A stretch of DNA of 64,000 nt from Paracidovorax citrulli (GTDB lineage: Bacteria; Pseudomonadota; Gammaproteobacteria; Burkholderiales; Burkholderiaceae_C). The translations under genes were made by a program, and so were the position numbers. Of this stretch, positions 10,834 through 25,661 are shown piece by piece. The notes beneath the pieces were generated by a model. It did not search any database. It had not been told where the DNA came from and was given only the letters and a program-made list of their open reading frames with translations. Where the stretch lies: assembly GCF_900100305.1 (NCBI RefSeq), contig NZ_FNEY01000026.1:1-64000 (forward strand), given 5' to 3'. Within the stretch, counting starts at the first letter, position 1. The number at the start of each line of letters is the position of its first letter.

Positions 10834-10884
10834 TCGGCAACAGCGGCACCGTCGAGCGTGCCCGCGTGTCGCCGACAATATTCC

Positions 10885-13098
10885 ATGCCTTTCTCTTCCG
10901 TCTCCGGGCCCCGCGCGTGGGCTGTCCTGCTGGGTGCCGTGCCCGTGGCTGCCATGGCGCAGTCGCCCGCTTCCGATTCGTCGCCCACCCAACTGCCGCC
11001 GGTGGAGGTGCGCGAGCGCGCCGAAACGCCGCGCCTCGCGCAGCCTGCCGCCGCGGCCTCGCGCCTGGGGCTGACCGTGCGCGAGACGCCGGCCTCCATC
11101 GACGTGGTGCCGCGCGAGATGCTGGCCGAGCGCGGGTCGCGCACGGTGTCGGAGGCCGCGCAGGCGGCCGTGGGCGTGCTGGCGGGGGATTTTCCTGCGG
11201 AGCCGGCTGCGTTCTCCATGCGCGGCTTCGCCAACAGCCAGATCAACACCCTCTACAACGGCATCAAGATAGGCCCGCCGAACATGACCTCGCGCGTCAT
11301 GGGCACGGCGAATCTCGAACGCGTGGAGTTCCTCAAGGGACCCGCGTCGCTGATGTCGGGCGAGGGCGCGGCCGGCGGCGCGGTGAACTTCGTCACGCGC
11401 GCGCCGCACCGCGGCCCGGTGGAAACCGAGGTGACCGCCGCGGCCGGATCCTTCGGCGAGCGGCGCCTGTCCGTCGGCACCGGCGGCACCACGGCCCGGA
11501 AGGACGTGGACTTCCGCCTCGACGCGAGCGGTTCGGACAATGACGGCTTCGTGCGGGACACGGGCCAGCGCCTGTGGCACCTGTCGGGCGGCCTGGACTG
11601 GTACCTGCGGCCGGGGCTCAAGCTGTTCGTCGCCGCTGAAGTGCAGCGCGACCGCGGCCATCCGTACTGGGGCACGCCGCTGGTCTCCGCGGCGGCGCCG
11701 GGCATCCAGGCGCAGCCGGGCGTGGTGTCCGGCACCTATGTGTCGGGCTTCAACGGCAGCGTGCTCGCACCGGTGGCCATCGACCGCCGCACGCTGCGCA
11801 CGAACTACAACGTGCTGGACAACCGCAACGAAGCGCGCGAGACCTGGCTGCGCACGGGCGTGGACTGGCGCATCGACGCCGCGTGGACGCTGCGCAGCCA
11901 GCTCTACCGCTACACCGCCACGCGCTCGTGGCTGAACAACGAGGTGCTCGCGTTCAACACCGGCACCGGCCTGGTGGACCGCGAGCGTTTCTTCGTGGCG
12001 CAGGACCAGACGACCACAGGCAACAAGACCGAACTGCAGTGGGACGGTCGTCTGGCAGGCCGGGAAAACCGCTTCGTCGCCGCGCTGGAACTGAGCGACA
12101 CGGACCTGGACCGCCCCGGCGCCGCCAACTTCCCCGGCGACAGCGTGTCGCTGATTTCACCCGACCGCGGCTTCTACGGCCCGCTGGTGCAGCAGCGGCA
12201 GACCACGCGGTTGCGCAATGCGGCGGTCGCGCTGGAGGACCGGCTGCGCATCACGCCCGCCGTGGCCCTCATTGGAGGCCTGCGGCACGAATCCATCGAA
12301 CTCGACCGCACCTCCACCGACGCGGCGGGCGCGGCGCGCCGCGGCTTTCCCTACGGCAAGACCTGGCACCCGACCACCGGCCGGCTGGGCCTGACGTGGG
12401 AGCCCGCGGCGGGCACCATGCTCTACGCCCAGGCCGCGACGGGTGCCGACGTGGCCGCCAACAACATCTTCCTGCTCGGCCCCGGCCAGCCGCTGGAGCT
12501 CACCCGGGCGCGCAATGCCGAGGTGGGCGTCAAGCAGGGCTTCTGGCAGGACCGCGGCGAATGGACGCTGGCCCTCTACGATGCCGAGCGCCGCAACGTC
12601 TATGCGGGGCAGGGTGGCCAGTCGCTGGCGCGCGCCGGCGCGCTGCGATCGCGTGGCGCGGAGCTGTCCCTGGCGCTGCGCCCCGCGGCCGCCTGGAGCG
12701 TCTGGACGCAACTGGCCTTCAACCGTGCGCGCTACGATGATTTCGTGCTGGCCAACGGTACATCCTTCTCCGGCCACACCCCGCCCAACACCCCGAAGGT
12801 GATGGCCAGCGTCGGCGCGGCCTACCGCTTCACCGCGGGCCTGCCGATGCAGATCTCCGCTTCGCTGCGGCACGTGGGCGAGCGCTTCCACAGCGACGCC
12901 AACACGGTCCGCCTGTCGGCCTACCGCGTGATCGATGCGGCCTGGAGCGTGGACGTGGCCCCGGGCACCCAGCTCACCCTGCGGGGCCGCAACCTGGCCA
13001 ACAAGGTCTATGCCGCCTGGGCGGATCCGTTCTACCCGGACCAGATCCTGCTCGGCGCGCCGCGCAGTTTCGAGCTGGCCCTGCGCTGGACGCTCTGA
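10885..13098 (+). CDS. TonB-dependent outer-membrane receptor (siderophore/metallophore type)
   Basis: A ~737-residue TonB-dependent receptor. A signal peptide (RAWAVLLGAVPVAAMAQ) precedes a TonB-box-like segment (QLPPVEVRER). The plug domain contains PASIDVVPREMLAERG, FSMRGFANSQINTLYNG and RVEFLKGPASLMSGEGAAGG. A 22-strand barrel then ends in the aromatic-tailed FELALRWTL. No N-terminal STN signalling domain is present. ATG 10885 was chosen for its compact signal peptide; GTG 10858 is an in-frame alternative and neither has a clear ribosome-binding site. It heads an operon with ABC importer genes at spacings of +8, -4 and -4. The order receptor-ATPase-binding protein-permease recalls the zinc-regulated PA2911-PA2914 cluster of Pseudomonas aeruginosa (from memory), so the substrate may be a metal complex rather than ferric siderophore. 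Confidence 0.92.
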   Translation: MPFSSVSGPRAWAVLLGAVPVAAMAQSPASDSSPTQLPPVEVRERAETPRLAQPAAAASRLGLTVRETPASIDVVPREMLAERGSRTVSEAAQAAVGVLAGDFPAEPAAFSMRGFANSQINTLYNGIKIGPPNMTSRVMGTANLERVEFLKGPASLMSGEGAAGGAVNFVTRAPHRGPVETEVTAAAGSFGERRLSVGTGGTTARKDVDFRLDASGSDNDGFVRDTGQRLWHLSGGLDWYLRPGLKLFVAAEVQRDRGHPYWGTPLVSAAAPGIQAQPGVVSGTYVSGFNGSVLAPVAIDRRTLRTNYNVLDNRNEARETWLRTGVDWRIDAAWTLRSQLYRYTATRSWLNNEVLAFNTGTGLVDRERFFVAQDQTTTGNKTELQWDGRLAGRENRFVAALELSDTDLDRPGAANFPGDSVSLISPDRGFYGPLVQQRQTTRLRNAAVALEDRLRITPAVALIGGLRHESIELDRTSTDAAGAARRGFPYGKTWHPTTGRLGLTWEPAAGTMLYAQAATGADVAANNIFLLGPGQPLELTRARNAEVGVKQGFWQDRGEWTLALYDAERRNVYAGQGGQSLARAGALRSRGAELSLALRPAAAWSVWTQLAFNRARYDDFVLANGTSFSGHTPPNTPKVMASVGAAYRFTAGLPMQISASLRHVGERFHSDANTVRLSAYRVIDAAWSVDVAPGTQLTLRGRNLANKVYAAWADPFYPDQILLGAPRSFELALRWTL

Positions 13099-13106
13099 CG
13101 CGGGCT

Positions 13107-13886
13107 GTGGACATGGTCGTGGCATTGCAGGCCGAAGGCCTCGGATGGAAGTCGCCACGCGGCGACTGGCTGCTGCAGGACGTGGGGCTGGAAGCCGGGC
13201 GCGGCGAGTGCGTGGCGCTGGTCGGACCCAACGGCGCGGGCAAGAGCACGCTCATGAAGCTGCTCGCGGGCCGCATGGCGCCCTCTGCAGGGGCGGTGCG
13301 CTGGGGCGGCCGGGACATGGCCTGCTGGCCGGCGGGCGAACGGGCGCGCAGCGTGGCGGTGCTGGGCCAGGACGACGTGGCGCAGGGCAGGCTCCGGGCC
13401 CGGGACTACGTGGCGCTCGGCCGGCTGCCGCACGAGGGCCGCATGGCGGCCGCCGACCATGCCCGCGCCGTGGACGGTGCGATGCGCACCTGCGGCGTGC
13501 AGGCCCTGGCGGAGCGCCCGCTGGGCAGCCTGTCGGGCGGGGAGCGCCAGCGCATGCACCTGGCCCGCGCGCTGGCCCAGGCCCCGGAGCTCCTGCTGCT
13601 CGACGAACCCACCAACCACCTCGACCTGGCGGCGCGCGCGGACGTGCTGTCGCTGGTCCGCGGCCTCGGCATCACCGTGGTGGCCGTGCTGCATGAACTG
13701 GCGCTGGTGCCGGCGTTCGCCGACCGGACCTGGGTGCTGCAGGCCGGCCGCCTCGTCGCCGAGGGGCCGCCCGCCCGGGCGCTGGGCGCGGAATGCGTGG
13801 CGCGGGTGTTCGGCATGGAGCTGGTGCACACGCGGCACCCCCGGCATGGCGGCACGCTGTGGTCATTCGAACGCGAGGCCGCATGA
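13107..13886 (+). CDS. ABC transporter ATP-binding protein, FecE/BtuD-like
   Basis: A 259-residue ABC ATPase. Walker A is LVGPNGAGKSTLMKLL (near residue 40), the signature LSGGERQRMHLARAL (near 145), Walker B LLLLDEPTNHLDL, and the H-loop His lies in AVLHELAL. This is the energising subunit for an iron-chelate/cobalamin-type importer. The GTG start at 13107 lies 8 nt after the receptor stop; ATG 13113 is an alternative. It overlaps the binding-protein gene by 4 nt. The usual D-loop and Q-loop regions are present and nothing is truncated. Confidence 0.92.
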   Translation: MDMVVALQAEGLGWKSPRGDWLLQDVGLEAGRGECVALVGPNGAGKSTLMKLLAGRMAPSAGAVRWGGRDMACWPAGERARSVAVLGQDDVAQGRLRARDYVALGRLPHEGRMAAADHARAVDGAMRTCGVQALAERPLGSLSGGERQRMHLARALAQAPELLLLDEPTNHLDLAARADVLSLVRGLGITVVAVLHELALVPAFADRTWVLQAGRLVAEGPPARALGAECVARVFGMELVHTRHPRHGGTLWSFEREAA

Positions 13887-14869
13887 GCTGGCGGCAAAGG
13901 ATCGCCGGTCTGGCGCTCTCCATGGCGCTGGCGCAGGTGGCCGTGGCGGCGGATGCTCCCCCGCCGGATGCCGGCTCCGCGTTCCCCGTGACGGTGTCCA
14001 ACTGCGGGGAGCCGCTGCGCATCGAAAGGCCTCCGCGCCGGCTGGTCGTGCACGACCTCAACATGACCGAAATGGCGCTCGCCCTGGGCCTGCGTCCGGC
14101 GCTGGTCGGCGTGACGGGCATCACCGGCTGGTACAAGCAGCCCGGCGAGGCGCTGCTGCGCACGCTGGACGGGGTGCCCGAACTGGCGCCCAGGTACCCC
14201 ACGATGGAAACGCTGGTGGCGGCGCGGCCGGACCTGTTTTTCGCGGGCTGGTACTACGGCATGCAGCCCGGCGGCGACGTGACCCCCGCCACGCTCGCGC
14301 TGCGCGGCATCCAGGCGCTGGTGCTCACCGAAAGCTGCGCGCAGAACCGGGCCGACAAGCCGCGCGCGACCATGGACCTGCTCTATGGCGACGTGCTGCG
14401 CCTGGGGCAGGTGTTCGGCCGCACCGCGCAGGCGCAGCGCCTCGTGGACGGCTGGCGCGCGCGCGTGGCCGCGGCCAACCGTCCCGCGCTGGAGCGCCGG
14501 CCCGGTGTCTTCGTCTATGACTCCGGCGAAGACAAGCCCTTCACCGCCGGCCGGGCGGCCATGCCCACCGCGCTCATCGACGCCGCGGGCGGGCGCAACG
14601 TGCTGGACGACCTGCCCATGAGCTGGGGCACCGCCGCCTGGGAGGCCGTGGCGCAGCGCAATCCGCGGTTCGTGATCCTGCTGGACTACCAGAACGGGCA
14701 GGGGCCGGACCATCTGGAACGTGTGCTGCGGGAGCATCCCGCCATGCGCCTCACGGATGCCGTGCGGGAAGGGCGCTTCATCGTGTTGCGCTATGCCGAA
14801 CTCACGCCCGGGCCTGCCAACATCGGGGCGATCGAGAAGATCGCGCGGGCGCTGCGGGGCGCGCGGTGA
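13883..14869 (+). CDS. Periplasmic substrate-binding protein of the same metal-complex ABC importer
   Basis: A 328-residue helical-backbone (class III, BtuF/FepB-like) binding protein. A signal peptide (IAGLALSMALAQVAVAA) is followed by VTVSNCGEPLRIERPPRR and VVHDLNMTEMALALGLRPALVG, the typical first strand and helix, and by YPTMETLVAARPDLFFAGWYYG. It resembles the branch with an N-terminal NCG motif, often found with orphan metallophore or cofactor importers, rather than FecB. Two cysteines (near 37 and 153) could form a disulfide. It overlaps the ATPase gene (ATGA) and the permease gene (GTGA), showing tight coupling. The ligand cannot be told from sequence. Confidence 0.88.
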   Translation: MSWRQRIAGLALSMALAQVAVAADAPPPDAGSAFPVTVSNCGEPLRIERPPRRLVVHDLNMTEMALALGLRPALVGVTGITGWYKQPGEALLRTLDGVPELAPRYPTMETLVAARPDLFFAGWYYGMQPGGDVTPATLALRGIQALVLTESCAQNRADKPRATMDLLYGDVLRLGQVFGRTAQAQRLVDGWRARVAAANRPALERRPGVFVYDSGEDKPFTAGRAAMPTALIDAAGGRNVLDDLPMSWGTAAWEAVAQRNPRFVILLDYQNGQGPDHLERVLREHPAMRLTDAVREGRFIVLRYAELTPGPANIGAIEKIARALRGAR

Positions 14870-15897
14870 ACGCGCCGGGAACCGCGCATCCAGCGCGCTG
14901 GCGGCGCTGGATGCCCGGCCTGCTGGGGCTGGCGCTCGCGGCGCTGGCCCTGCTGTCGCTCAAGTCTGGCGGGGTGGAGGTCGGCTGGCAGGACGTGTTT
15001 TCCGCCCTGGGCGCCAGCGAGGCTGAGGGCACGGGCGCCATGGCGCAGACCATCGTGCGGGATCTGCGCCTGCCGCGCGTGCTGCTGTCCATGGCCGTGG
15101 GCGCGGCGCTCGCCCTCGTGGGCAGCCTGCTGCAGACGACGACGCGCAACGACCTGGCCGACCCGTTCCTCTTCGGGCTGTCGTCCGGGGCATCCGCGGG
15201 CGCCGTCGCCGTCATCACCCTGGCCGGGAGCGCGCTGGGCATGTGGACGCTGCCGCTGGCCACCTTCGCGGGGGCCCTGGTCGCCGCCGGGGCCGTGCTG
15301 CTGATCGCGCAGGGCGGCCAGGGACAGGGGCCCGCGCGGATCGTGCTGGCCGGGGTGTCGGTATCGTTTCTCTTCGGGGCGCTGACCCACGCGCTGATTT
15401 TCGCGGGAGACCAGCGCGCAGCCCATTCCGTCGTGTTCTGGTCTCTGGGTGGGCTGGGCCTCGCCCGCTGGGACAACCTCTGGCTGGCCGGAGCGGGACT
15501 GCTGGCACCGGCGCTGTTCATCGCACGGCGCCACCGGGCGCTCGATGCGCTGCTGGCGGGCGATGACACCGCCCACAGCCTGGGCGTGGAACCGCAGCGG
15601 CTGCGCCGCCAGGCCTTCGTGGTGGCGGCCTTCGCCACCGCCTGCTGCGTGGCGCTCACGGGCCTCATCGGATTCGTCGGACTCATGGTGCCCCATCTGG
15701 CGCGCCGCATGGCCGGGCCGCTGCACCGCGCATCCTCCATGGCGGCCGCGGCCCTCGGCGCCGCGCTGCTGCTGGCCAGCGACCTTGCTGCGCGATCGCT
15801 GCTGGGCGCGCAGGAACTGCCCGTGGGCATCGTGACCTCGGGGCTGGGGGCGTGTTTCGTGATCGTGCTGCTGCGGCGCGGCAGCGGCACCATGTGA
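14866..15897 (+). CDS. ABC transporter permease, FecCD family
   Basis: A 343-residue inner-membrane permease with about 9-10 hydrophobic segments. Landmarks are RLPRVLLSMAVGAALALVGS (family start motif), NDLADPFLFGLSSGASAGAV (conserved coupling and pore region), GDDTAHSLGVEPQRLR (EAA-like loop) and GFVGLMVPHLARRM. It presumably forms a homodimer with two copies of the ATPase. The GTG start lies within the stop region of the binding-protein gene. It is the last gene of the operon; the stand-alone iron-linked RNA element follows on the opposite strand. Confidence 0.92.
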   Translation: MNAPGTAHPARWRRWMPGLLGLALAALALLSLKSGGVEVGWQDVFSALGASEAEGTGAMAQTIVRDLRLPRVLLSMAVGAALALVGSLLQTTTRNDLADPFLFGLSSGASAGAVAVITLAGSALGMWTLPLATFAGALVAAGAVLLIAQGGQGQGPARIVLAGVSVSFLFGALTHALIFAGDQRAAHSVVFWSLGGLGLARWDNLWLAGAGLLAPALFIARRHRALDALLAGDDTAHSLGVEPQRLRRQAFVVAAFATACCVALTGLIGFVGLMVPHLARRMAGPLHRASSMAAAALGAALLLASDLAARSLLGAQELPVGIVTSGLGACFVIVLLRRGSGTM

Positions 15898-15915: not shown

Positions 15916-16053
15916 AAAAAAAGCCTGGCTACGCGGGCAAACCGTTGGCTGGCAAAAACGACCCTTGGGACCTGGTGCAGGTCCGGAGTCGCCCCACGAT
16001 GAAACCTGTCTGGGTGGCTGCCACGCCGTAAGTGGCGAGTGGCGGCAGCGATT
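15916..16053 (-). ncRNA. Candidate Fur-regulated small RNA
   Basis: A minus-strand promoter overlapped by a Fur box (see next entry) would start transcription near 16053. The stretch ends in seven T at 15922-15916. Its 3' two-thirds (16007-15916) is a near copy of the 3' UTR of hemP (25379-25287). Conserved parts are GTTTCATCGTGGGGCGACTC, a hairpin (GGACCTG, loop CAC, CAGGTCC), GCCAGCCAACGGTT, and CGCGTAGCCAGGC before the T-run. The hairpin stem survives although its bases differ between copies. A one-base length difference breaks any shared reading frame, so conservation is at RNA level. An imperfect stem-loop before the T-run could terminate. No ORF with a ribosome-binding site lies inside. 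Confidence 0.6.
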
Positions 16054-16059
16054 GACGGC

Positions 16060-16089
16060 AGTGTAGCATTAAATGAGAATGCTTATCAA
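16060..16089 (-). promoter_or_regulatory. Sigma70-type promoter with Fur box, driving the candidate small RNA
   Basis: On the minus strand there is TTGATA (16089-16084), 18 bases, then TACACT (16065-16060). Between and across them, 16074-16088 reads TGAGAATGCTTATCA, which differs from the Fur consensus TGATAATNATTATCA at two of 14 defined positions. The same box could also control the DUF2325 gene, which starts 64 nt away on the plus strand. Confidence 0.65.
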
Positions 16090-16151
16090 TACATTCTTTA
16101 GCCGGATGGTCATTGCATGATCTCCGGCCATGCCTTCTGGAGGAGCGTTGC

Positions 16152-24546: not shown

Positions 24547-24784
24547 CTTCTCTTGCTCCCTTTGCCTGTTGAGGCCTGCGAAGTGCAGACCGGCAAATTC
24601 TAGGTGGTGGCTTCCAGCCCGCTTTCAAATAACCTTTGCCACTCCCGACCTTTTGGGATGCAGTGTTTTGCCATGGACAGCCCGGTGGAGGGCGACGCGG
24701 GAGATATCCTCCGCAGGTTCCGTACCGGCCGGACGCGGTCGCGGCCTGCCGATCCTCCATCCGTTTTCCATTCCACCGGATCCC

Positions 24785-25192
24785 ATGAAGACCAAACCCG
24801 AACTCGAATTCGCCGACGTCAAGAAAATCGCTGCCGCCGCGGAGGCGGAAGCCGTGCGCAACGGCTGGGCGGTGACCATCGCCATCGTGGACGACGGCGG
24901 CCATCTCCTCTCGCTGCAGCGCCTGGACGGTGCCGCACCGCTGTCGTCGCACATCGCCCCGGGCAAGGCCCGCACGGCCGCCCTGGGCCGCCGCGAGAGC
25001 AAGGTGTACGAAGACATCATCAACGGCGGCCGCACCGCCTTCCTGACGGCACCCTTCATCGACGGGATGCTCGAAGGCGGCGTGCCGATCCTGAAGGACG
25101 GCCAGTGCCTGGGCGCCGTGGGCGTGAGCGGCGTGAAATCCAGCGAGGACGCGCAGATCGCCCGCGCCGGCATCGCGGCCATCGGCCTCTGA
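24785..25192 (+). CDS. GlcG/HbpS-family heme-binding-like protein
   Basis: A 135-residue protein of the GlcG/HbpS (DUF336) family: KKIAAAAEAEAVRNGWAVTIAIVDDGGHLLSLQRLDGA, GKARTAALGRRES and GGVPILKDGQCLGAVGVSGV are the conserved blocks. Members form octamers; some bind heme or occur next to glycolate oxidase genes, and for most the role is unknown. The ATG at 24785 follows the family N-terminus; the frame is open upstream. The 238 bases between it and the BI-1-like gene hold divergent promoters only. It converges on the iron-regulated hemP gene, which may or may not be meaningful. Confidence 0.85.
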   Translation: MKTKPELEFADVKKIAAAAEAEAVRNGWAVTIAIVDDGGHLLSLQRLDGAAPLSSHIAPGKARTAALGRRESKVYEDIINGGRTAFLTAPFIDGMLEGGVPILKDGQCLGAVGVSGVKSSEDAQIARAGIAAIGL

Positions 25193-25241
25193 TCCGGCCC
25201 GCGCCGGCGCCCGCACTCCCGCGGTGCAGACCACAAGCAAA

Positions 25242-25267
25242 AAACCGGCCTCGAAAGGCCGGTTTTT
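25242..25267 (+). terminator. Rho-independent terminator after the GlcG-like gene
   Basis: AAACCGGCC (25242-25250) and GGCCGGTTT (25257-25265) form a perfect 9-bp stem with a 6-base loop, followed by T. It ends 20 nt before the oppositely directed T-run of the hemP 3' element. Confidence 0.85.
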
Positions 25268-25286
25268 CTTTGGGAGGCGCTGTGGG

Positions 25287-25379
25287 AAAAAAAGCCTGGC
25301 TACGCGGGCGAACCGTTGGCTGGCGAATACGACCCGGCGGACCGGCAGGCGGTCCGGGAGTCGCCCCACGATGAAACCT
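25287..25379 (-). repeat. Conserved iron-linked RNA element, hemP 3'-UTR copy
   Basis: On the minus strand this begins inside the hemP stop codon and ends in seven T (25293-25287). It matches the element at 15916-16007: GTTTCATCGTGGGGCGACTC is identical; a hairpin follows (GGACCG, loop CCTGC, CGGTCC) whose loop and closing pair differ from the other copy; then GGGTCGT, GCCAGCCAACGGTT and CGCGTAGCCAGGC are shared. It probably acts as the 3' end and terminator of hemP mRNA and may be released as a regulatory RNA. Confidence 0.65.
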
Positions 25380-25599
25380 ATTTGGTGAGGATCAGCTTGC
25401 CGAGCTTCGTGGCCTGCAGGCGGTAGATGGAGCCGTTGTGGAAGATCGCCACGGTCTTCTGCCCCTTGAGCAGTTCGCTGCTGTCCACCGCGGGCGCCGC
25501 GGACGAGGTGCGGCCATGGGTGTCCGCCTGCCGGTCGGCGACGCCCGGGGCGCCGAAAAAGGCTGCGGAGGGGGACAGGGCGGTCAGGCTGGCATGCAT
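25378..25599 (-). CDS. hemP: Hemin uptake protein HemP
   Basis: A 73-residue HemP-family protein. The C-terminal conserved block is VDSSELLKGQKTVAIFHNGS, then IYRLQATKLGKLILTK, the recognised HemP domain; the first ~35 residues are variable. HemP genes usually sit with heme uptake genes, and in Burkholderia the protein acts as a regulator of heme-receptor expression. It is monocistronic with its own Fur-box promoter and lies just downstream of the exbB-exbD genes. The start at ATG 25599 has a GAGGA sequence upstream. Confidence 0.92.
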   Translation of the reverse strand: MHASLTALSPSAAFFGAPGVADRQADTHGRTSSAAPAVDSSELLKGQKTVAIFHNGSIYRLQATKLGKLILTK

Positions 25600-25633
25600 G
25601 GTTTCGGATCCTCGGTGCGTTGGCAATGAATTA

Positions 25634-25661
25634 ATGATAACCATTCTCAATTGAGCGTCAA
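25634..25661 (-). promoter_or_regulatory. Fur-box promoter of hemP
   Basis: On the minus strand TTGACG (25661-25656), 16 bases, then TATCAT (25639-25634). The Fur-like site TGAGAATGGTTATCA (25649-25635) differs from the consensus at the same two positions as the box at 16074-16088. Transcription would begin ~30 nt before the hemP start. Confidence 0.75.

Follow-up and report, generated by a model that had tools for sequence, protein, structure and literature searches.

Two copies of a 92 nt element lie approximately 9.4 kb apart on the minus strand of the window, i.e., the whole stretch of 64,000 nucleotides of Paracidovorax citrulli DNA analyzed here. The first copy begins at the stop codon of hemP (25378..25599, minus strand; 73 amino acids plus stop codon TAG; PF10636 hemP, E = 4.2e-16) and occupies the 3′ UTR of this gene. 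The second copy stands alone. A covariance model matched the hemP-linked copy (25287..25377, minus strand) with 99.4 bits (E = 3.0e-24) and the stand-alone copy (15916..16005, minus strand) with 98.5 bits (E = 5.5e-24), both copies being among the sequences from which the model was built. The preliminary description had claimed that the two loci carry the same RNA element, and this is confirmed by the alignment, by the presence of a real hemP gene and by GTTTCATCGTGGGGCGACTC, which has two exact matches in the window (25358-25377 and 15986-16005, both minus strand; 0.01 expected with up to three mismatches). The blocks GCCAGCCAACGGTT and CGCGTAGCCAGGC are likewise common to both copies in the alignment, ahead of seven T, and the intervening hairpin differs in bases between the copies with its pairing kept, just as had been described.

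Each copy further contains a conserved 5′ block, AUCGUGGGG (25364..25372 and 15992..16000, both minus strand), which we propose as a seed based on column conservation and on its complement in the leaders of sodB and sdhC. An AGCC-repeat hairpin follows toward the 3′ end (25294..25324 and 15923..15953, both minus strand), proposed as a terminator similar to an HmuP-responsive element (HPRE), and is succeeded by a U tract (25293-25287 and 15922-15916). Convergent with hemP lies a gene for an HbpS-like heme-degrading protein (24785..25192, plus strand; PF03928, E = 5.6e-33), for which the match was obtained on the longer ORF 24569-25192 and the start codon was chosen by eye. Between this gene and the hemP RNA, a stem-loop flanked by runs of A and T was seen by eye at about 25239-25269; a simple terminator scan did not flag it, and it could act as a bidirectional transcription stop. 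The stand-alone copy is convergent with a gene for a FecCD-family permease (14866..15897, plus strand; PF01032, E = 3.4e-87), and the region beside it (10858-15897) holds genes for a TonB-dependent receptor, a periplasmic binding protein and this permease.

A whole-genome blastn search (4.85 Mb, 71 contigs) returned these two copies and no third. The dozens of copies expected of a dispersed terminator-like repeat, which the preliminary description had named as the case against an iron-specific RNA, are absent, and such a repeat is ruled out by the presence of just two copies in the own genome. Using the hemP-linked copy as blastn query, 23 of 60 genomes (own genome included) gave a match: exactly two copies were present in all 17 genomes of the genus, one or two copies in 6 of 19 other genomes of the family, and none of the 24 genomes outside the family had a match. 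In 16 of the 17 genus genomes the copies are 9.4–10.2 kb apart on one contig, and in the remaining one (G011) they are on separate contigs. The covariance model, built from 30 copies, matched 77 of 299 sampled family genomes, a lower bound as strict filters drop weak matches; these genomes represent 38 of 141 genera and carry one to three copies each. An order-wide draw of 399 genomes yielded eight with matches, all of them in the own family. At least 120 stretches were found in an exact-pattern scan of named genomes, and record titles among the 80 matches listed include Paracidovorax, Acidovorax, Variovorax, Comamonas, Curvibacter, Hydrogenophaga, Diaphorobacter, Xylophilus, and others. Both window copies belong to a family of structured RNAs found in Comamonadaceae-type genomes. 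The element, otherwise seen in Comamonadaceae-type records, is also present on two contigs (L225, L245) with the title Pantoea sp. 18069, and this record is probably misnamed or mixed.

From 5′ to 3′, the element consists of a single-stranded part, a stem-loop whose tip varies, a linker rich in U, the hairpin flanked by AGCC, and the U tract. Among 30 copies, changes on both sides were found in 11 of 22 base pairs, and 92.6% of the cells were paired, compared with 24–46% when the partners were slid. An alignment of 103 copies was then evaluated, which was fitted to the structure model and did not include 22 of the 34 copies from the genus nor three weak ones from the family (L325-L327); here, 19 of 22 pairs showed changes on both sides, 93.1% of the cells were paired, and the covariation score was 0.400 vs. 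0.148 in shuffles. The nine columns of AUCGUGGGG are among the most constant ones, with the consensus base in 97–103 of the 103 copies at each column. AGCCA flanks the last hairpin on the left in all 103 copies and on the right in 102–103. Folding of single sequences was unexceptional compared with shuffles (z-scores of −0.5 and −1.2 for the two window copies); the evidence for the structure is covariation across genomes, not the folding energy of a single copy. Covariation and the length changes between copies also speak against the element being a shared coding frame. The AGCC hairpin was flagged in neither window copy by a simple terminator scan because its stem is interrupted, and at the stand-alone locus 15972-15960 was flagged instead.

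Sites resembling Fur boxes were scored against GATAATGATAATCATTATC, which we take to be the Fur consensus. Only two sites in the 64 kb reach at least 14/19, and one lies ahead of each copy: the site of hemP at 25630..25648 (minus strand; 15/19) and the site of the stand-alone gene at 16075..16093 (minus strand; 14/19), the latter being conserved in the genus. The assertion that both boxes share the same two deviations from the consensus was roughly right. Both deviate at consensus positions 1, 2, 12, and 17, and position 17 is C in both, but position 12 differs (C vs. G) and the stand-alone box has an additional deviation at position 5. Sigma-70-like hexamers were detected for hemP (TTGACG-16-TATCAT, 25661-25634, minus strand) and for the stand-alone gene (TTGATA-18-TACACT, 16060..16089, minus strand), where they overlap the Fur-like box and predict an RNA start near 16053. 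The promoter scan at the stand-alone copy gave two promoter-like sites in total, the other one on the plus strand, compared with an average of 0.1 in shuffles, and the block from the Fur-like box to TACACT is strongly conserved within the genus. Judged by sequence, both window copies have a Fur-like box at a putative promoter, as is typical of a Fur-repressed, iron-sparing sRNA such as RyhB.

This arrangement was surveyed in the other genomes. In the 150 nt ahead of 24 stand-alone copies, the best Fur-like 19-mer scores 10–15 of 19; 19 copies reach at least 12/19 and five stay below, compared with 61 of 960 shuffled stretches at 12/19 or more. The same 150 nt ahead of 78 hemP-linked copies consist mostly of hemP coding DNA, and the best scores there are 8–11 of 19, with none at 12 or above. 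Within 450 nt, i.e., around the start of hemP, 70 of these 78 copies reach at least 12/19.

According to a motif test (≤320 nt upstream), 78 of the 103 copies are located −2 to +229 nt from a hemP stop codon. One more copy (L070) follows a hemP frame without the core motif, so that the comparison of hemP 3′ UTRs across the family, which had been suggested as a check, places the element behind hemP in 79 of the 103 aligned copies. In L070 (around 1400-1600), the full RNA element is retained after the stop codon of the core-less hemP frame, as though it were the RNA that is being preserved. The 24 stand-alone copies belong to 12 genera, six of them coming from the own genus and the other 18 from 11 further genera. 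Within the genus, the two forms differ in their linker, which is GUCGUUUUU in 17 of 17 stand-alone copies and GUCGUAUU in 14 of 17 hemP-linked copies. A tree of the copies, poorly resolved and built on too small a number of columns for the duplication to be dated, needs 13 changes between the forms, and at least six are already required by its starred branches. Therefore, the form has probably changed repeatedly between hemP-linked and stand-alone, by gain, loss or conversion. Genus g111 (L099, L102, L105) has two tandem copies behind hemP, 31–51 nt apart, which recall the prrF genes that also occur in tandem.

The proposal of a 3′-UTR-derived regulatory RNA is supported by these results, given a structured, iron-linked RNA which occurs in both forms in many genera, is not a dispersed repeat in the own genome and has an analog in BrrF. 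BrrF is an sRNA of the hemP 3′ UTR of Burkholderia, which is induced in low iron and apparently cleaved from the hemP mRNA. In the sections of its description considered here, sodB and sdhC drop in low iron in the wild type and not in a brrF deletion mutant, brrF is always found behind hemP without a Fur box directly upstream, and its occurrence is given as Burkholderia, Paraburkholderia, Pandoraea, and Cupriavidus (PMC7377471). Among 60 genomes fitting Burkholderiaceae, we detected one BrrF-like copy each in 29, and 27 of the 28 copies examined sit behind hemP. The BrrF-type layout is GUAUUGUGGGG, a hairpin, GGC..UAGCCAG, a variable stem, AGCCAGC..GCC, and a U tract (locus L396 was left out, as it has no GTGGGG within 40 nt), and this part order equals that of the element.

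Several features are shared with BrrF: the position behind hemP in the case of the hemP-linked copies, the Fur box ahead of hemP, a G-rich block (GUGGGG in BrrF) right before the hairpin, UAGCCAG ... AGCCAGC on either side of a variable stem with a subsequent U run, a similar length (about 125–130 nt for BrrF), and sodB and sdhC as proposed targets, both being among those reported for BrrF in the sections considered (PMC7377471). A gene for a heme-binding protein lies downstream in some genomes according to the same sections (PMC7377471), and a convergent hbpS-like gene was seen by eye at BrrF-type locus L363. Unlike BrrF, the present RNA has the block AUCGUGGGG instead of UAUUGUGGGG, a 3′ half that is shorter, GCC/GGC rather than GGC/GCC as closing pairs, and copies away from hemP with a Fur-like box of their own; these stand-alone copies fall outside the hemP 3′-UTR location that defines BrrF. 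The Rfam model of BrrF (RF02692, BTH_s39) had no match in the window at gathering score nor to either copy at E-values up to 10, and as a positive control it matched three of four BrrF-type loci (L363, L388, and L389, not L401). The covariance model of the element in turn left BrrF-type locus L363 unmatched at E-values up to 10 and matched hemP loci of other families weakly, with a best E-value of 0.0037. Since the layout is the same and the models do not match across, the element probably works and sits like BrrF as a distant relative, and by score it is not a member of RF02692. No Rfam family at all matched the window at gathering score, and at E-values up to 10 there were just matches far below the gathering scores.

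RyhB of enterobacteria, PrrF1/F2 of Pseudomonas and NrrF of Neisseria are sRNAs repressed by Fur and transcribed from promoters of their own. RyhB and PrrF are discussed in PMC7377471. The present RNA is similar to these sRNAs in the stand-alone form with its own putative Fur-box promoter, the predicted short U-ended RNA, the iron-enzyme targets proposed here, and the tandem copies in some cases. In contrast to them, it has a second form within an mRNA 3′ UTR, and none of their Rfam families was matched at gathering score.

The hexamer CCACGA is complementary to UCGUGG, a part of the 5′ block. It was found between −40 and +6 of the start codon in 9 of 10 Fe-type sodB genes and in 10 of 12 sdhC genes, compared with 0 of 6 Mn-type sod genes, in a survey which covered these two gene families (sod, sdhC), had starts of both picked by pattern and left uncounted two of 18 sod loci (L408, L417) that gave no start. 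In the controls, CCACGA occurs in 28 of 1722 family ORFs and in 10 of 793 longest non-overlapping ORFs. Burkholderiaceae-like genomes have the block UUGUGGGG, and their Fe-type sodB leaders, with the type determined by eye from the N-terminus, contain CCACGA in 0 of 18 cases; 7 of these 18 show CCCCACAA or CCCCATAA instead (partly by eye), and one own-family leader (L414) likewise has CCCCACAA. The sdhC leader shows block-wise conservation, so that CCACGA may have another cause there. Duplex energies are weak alone, placing sodB leaders in the best 2.5–30% and sdhC leaders in the best 6–36% of a control set that includes other-family loci and overlapping ORFs (CCACGA in 30 of 1821). A perfect 11-nt complement of the seed at gene starts is not conserved, and the exact 11-nt complement was rejected as a target finder, as its recurrent site was, by eye, the antisense of the C-terminal codons of a protein. 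The two superoxide dismutases of the own genome match Fe-SOD and Mn-SOD structures, respectively. Upstream of the Mn-type sod (L413, about 1133-1156), a Fur-box-like stretch, ATAATTATCATTTG, was noticed, which would be in keeping with Mn-SOD replacing Fe-SOD when iron is low.

Taken together, we think it likely that the element acts as an iron-sparing sRNA of the BrrF type under Fur control, with two routes of synthesis, from its own promoter and from the 3′ end of the hemP mRNA. In the first case, transcription from the promoter overlapped by the Fur box would result in a predicted RNA of about 135–140 nt (near 16053 to 15916). In the second case, the hemP mRNA, itself repressed by Fur, would be cleaved near the hemP stop codon, and the 3′-end RNA is predicted to be released by this processing. 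When iron becomes scarce, Fur would release and both RNAs would appear. AUCGUGGGG could then pair with CCACGA just ahead of the start codon of iron-enzyme mRNAs (sodB, encoding Fe-SOD, and sdhC) and would thereby reduce the translation or stability of these mRNAs. The U-rich linker and the U-ended hairpin would suit an Hfq-type chaperone. In the open-licence literature searched, we found no report of this RNA or of a RyhB-type regulator in Comamonadaceae, and relative to the papers compared, the stand-alone form, the range across the family and the HPRE-like AGCC repeat are new. The RNA would be a candidate RyhB-type regulator for many Comamonadaceae-type genomes. Further, it offers an example of a probable sRNA found in several lineages in two guises, at the end of an mRNA and as a separate gene, which would make it possible to trace how sRNA genes emerge from 3′ UTRs.

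A different function is conceivable in view of the AGCC repeat. HPREs are HmuP-responsive elements in the 5′ UTRs of heme-receptor mRNAs, and for the Chromobacterium HemP homolog ChuP, a post-transcriptional action was proposed, with HPREs containing AGCCAGCC repeats ahead of its targets; the HPRE quoted ahead of chuR, CCCGCAAGCCAGCCGACAGCCAGCCAGCG, has AGCCA in common with the element (passages considered from PMC9131926). The last hairpin of the element contains AGCCAGCC-type repeats tied to hemP-family regulators, as an HPRE does, with the HPRE consensus used here based on the two sequences quoted in the passages considered (PMC9131926). In contrast to an HPRE, the repeats occupy a 3′ UTR and a separate small RNA rather than a receptor leader, and a location in the 5′ UTR of a TonB receptor was not found for the window copies, which are followed by the U tract and convergent genes. 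Within 260 nt downstream of hemP, GCCAGC...AGCCAG occurs at 31 of 50 loci of the order including the own one (30 of 48 without the own family; a few hemP ends are mis-set), compared with 0 of 50 in a stretch upstream and a mean of 0.085 in shuffles (largest 1). It is possible, though not probable, that the element acts as a HemP-dependent control element and not as a target-pairing sRNA, in which case the 3′ UTR would autoregulate hemP and the stand-alone RNA would soak up or store HemP. The near-invariant AGCCA on both sides of the hairpin and the frequent repeat behind hemP in the order would agree with such a function. However, such a function does not explain why the 5′ block is constant and why the sodB and sdhC leaders contain its complement, two quoted sequences define the HPRE consensus, and AGCCA could equally be kept by a conserved terminator.

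We regard it as improbable that the hemP-linked copy acts in cis only and just the stand-alone copy is a functional sRNA. Fur-like box and promoter hexamers are found directly ahead of the element in stand-alone copies only, and the difference between the linkers within the genus points in the same direction, but the same seed is kept in the hemP-linked copies of single-copy genomes, and BrrF is a working hemP-linked sRNA in the sections considered (PMC7377471). Highly improbable is a mere conserved hemP transcription terminator copied once, which would account for an element beginning at the hemP stop codon and ending in a hairpin with seven T, but not for the copies away from hemP, 19 of 24 with a Fur-like box nearby, nor for the most constant stretch being in the 5′ half, which is dispensable for termination, and against which also stand the unflagged AGCC hairpins, the further stem-loop at about 25239-25269 with T on both sides and the low copy number in the own genome.

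The Fur-controlled sRNA proposed above might also be linked to HemP itself. More speculatively, the HemP protein may bind the RNA via the AGCC repeats. A combined scenario, which to us appears doubtful, is a Fur-controlled sRNA with a HemP-responsive terminator, where HemP binds the 3′-UTR RNA and its free paralog, and where repeated release from hemP made the sRNA genes. If HemP does bind the RNA, heme status would set the strength of the iron-sparing response, and the HemP protein, which is little understood, would be connected with an iron-sparing sRNA in a way that can be tested. A plasmid search for HemP returned 12 records, none of them from Burkholderia. Loose HPRE patterns were dropped, being too frequent in coding DNA. 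In two genus genomes (L323 and L324, near 2976, minus strand), GCCAGCCAGA..TACTGAGCCAGCC is located directly ahead of a start codon of a gene that was taken by eye for iscS, with no clear hairpin at this site. Just behind hemP, short stems flanked by AGCCAGC-type repeats are frequent throughout the order (L145, L155, L366, L369, and others), and some of these loci precede, as judged by eye, a TonB receptor or an FtrA-like gene.
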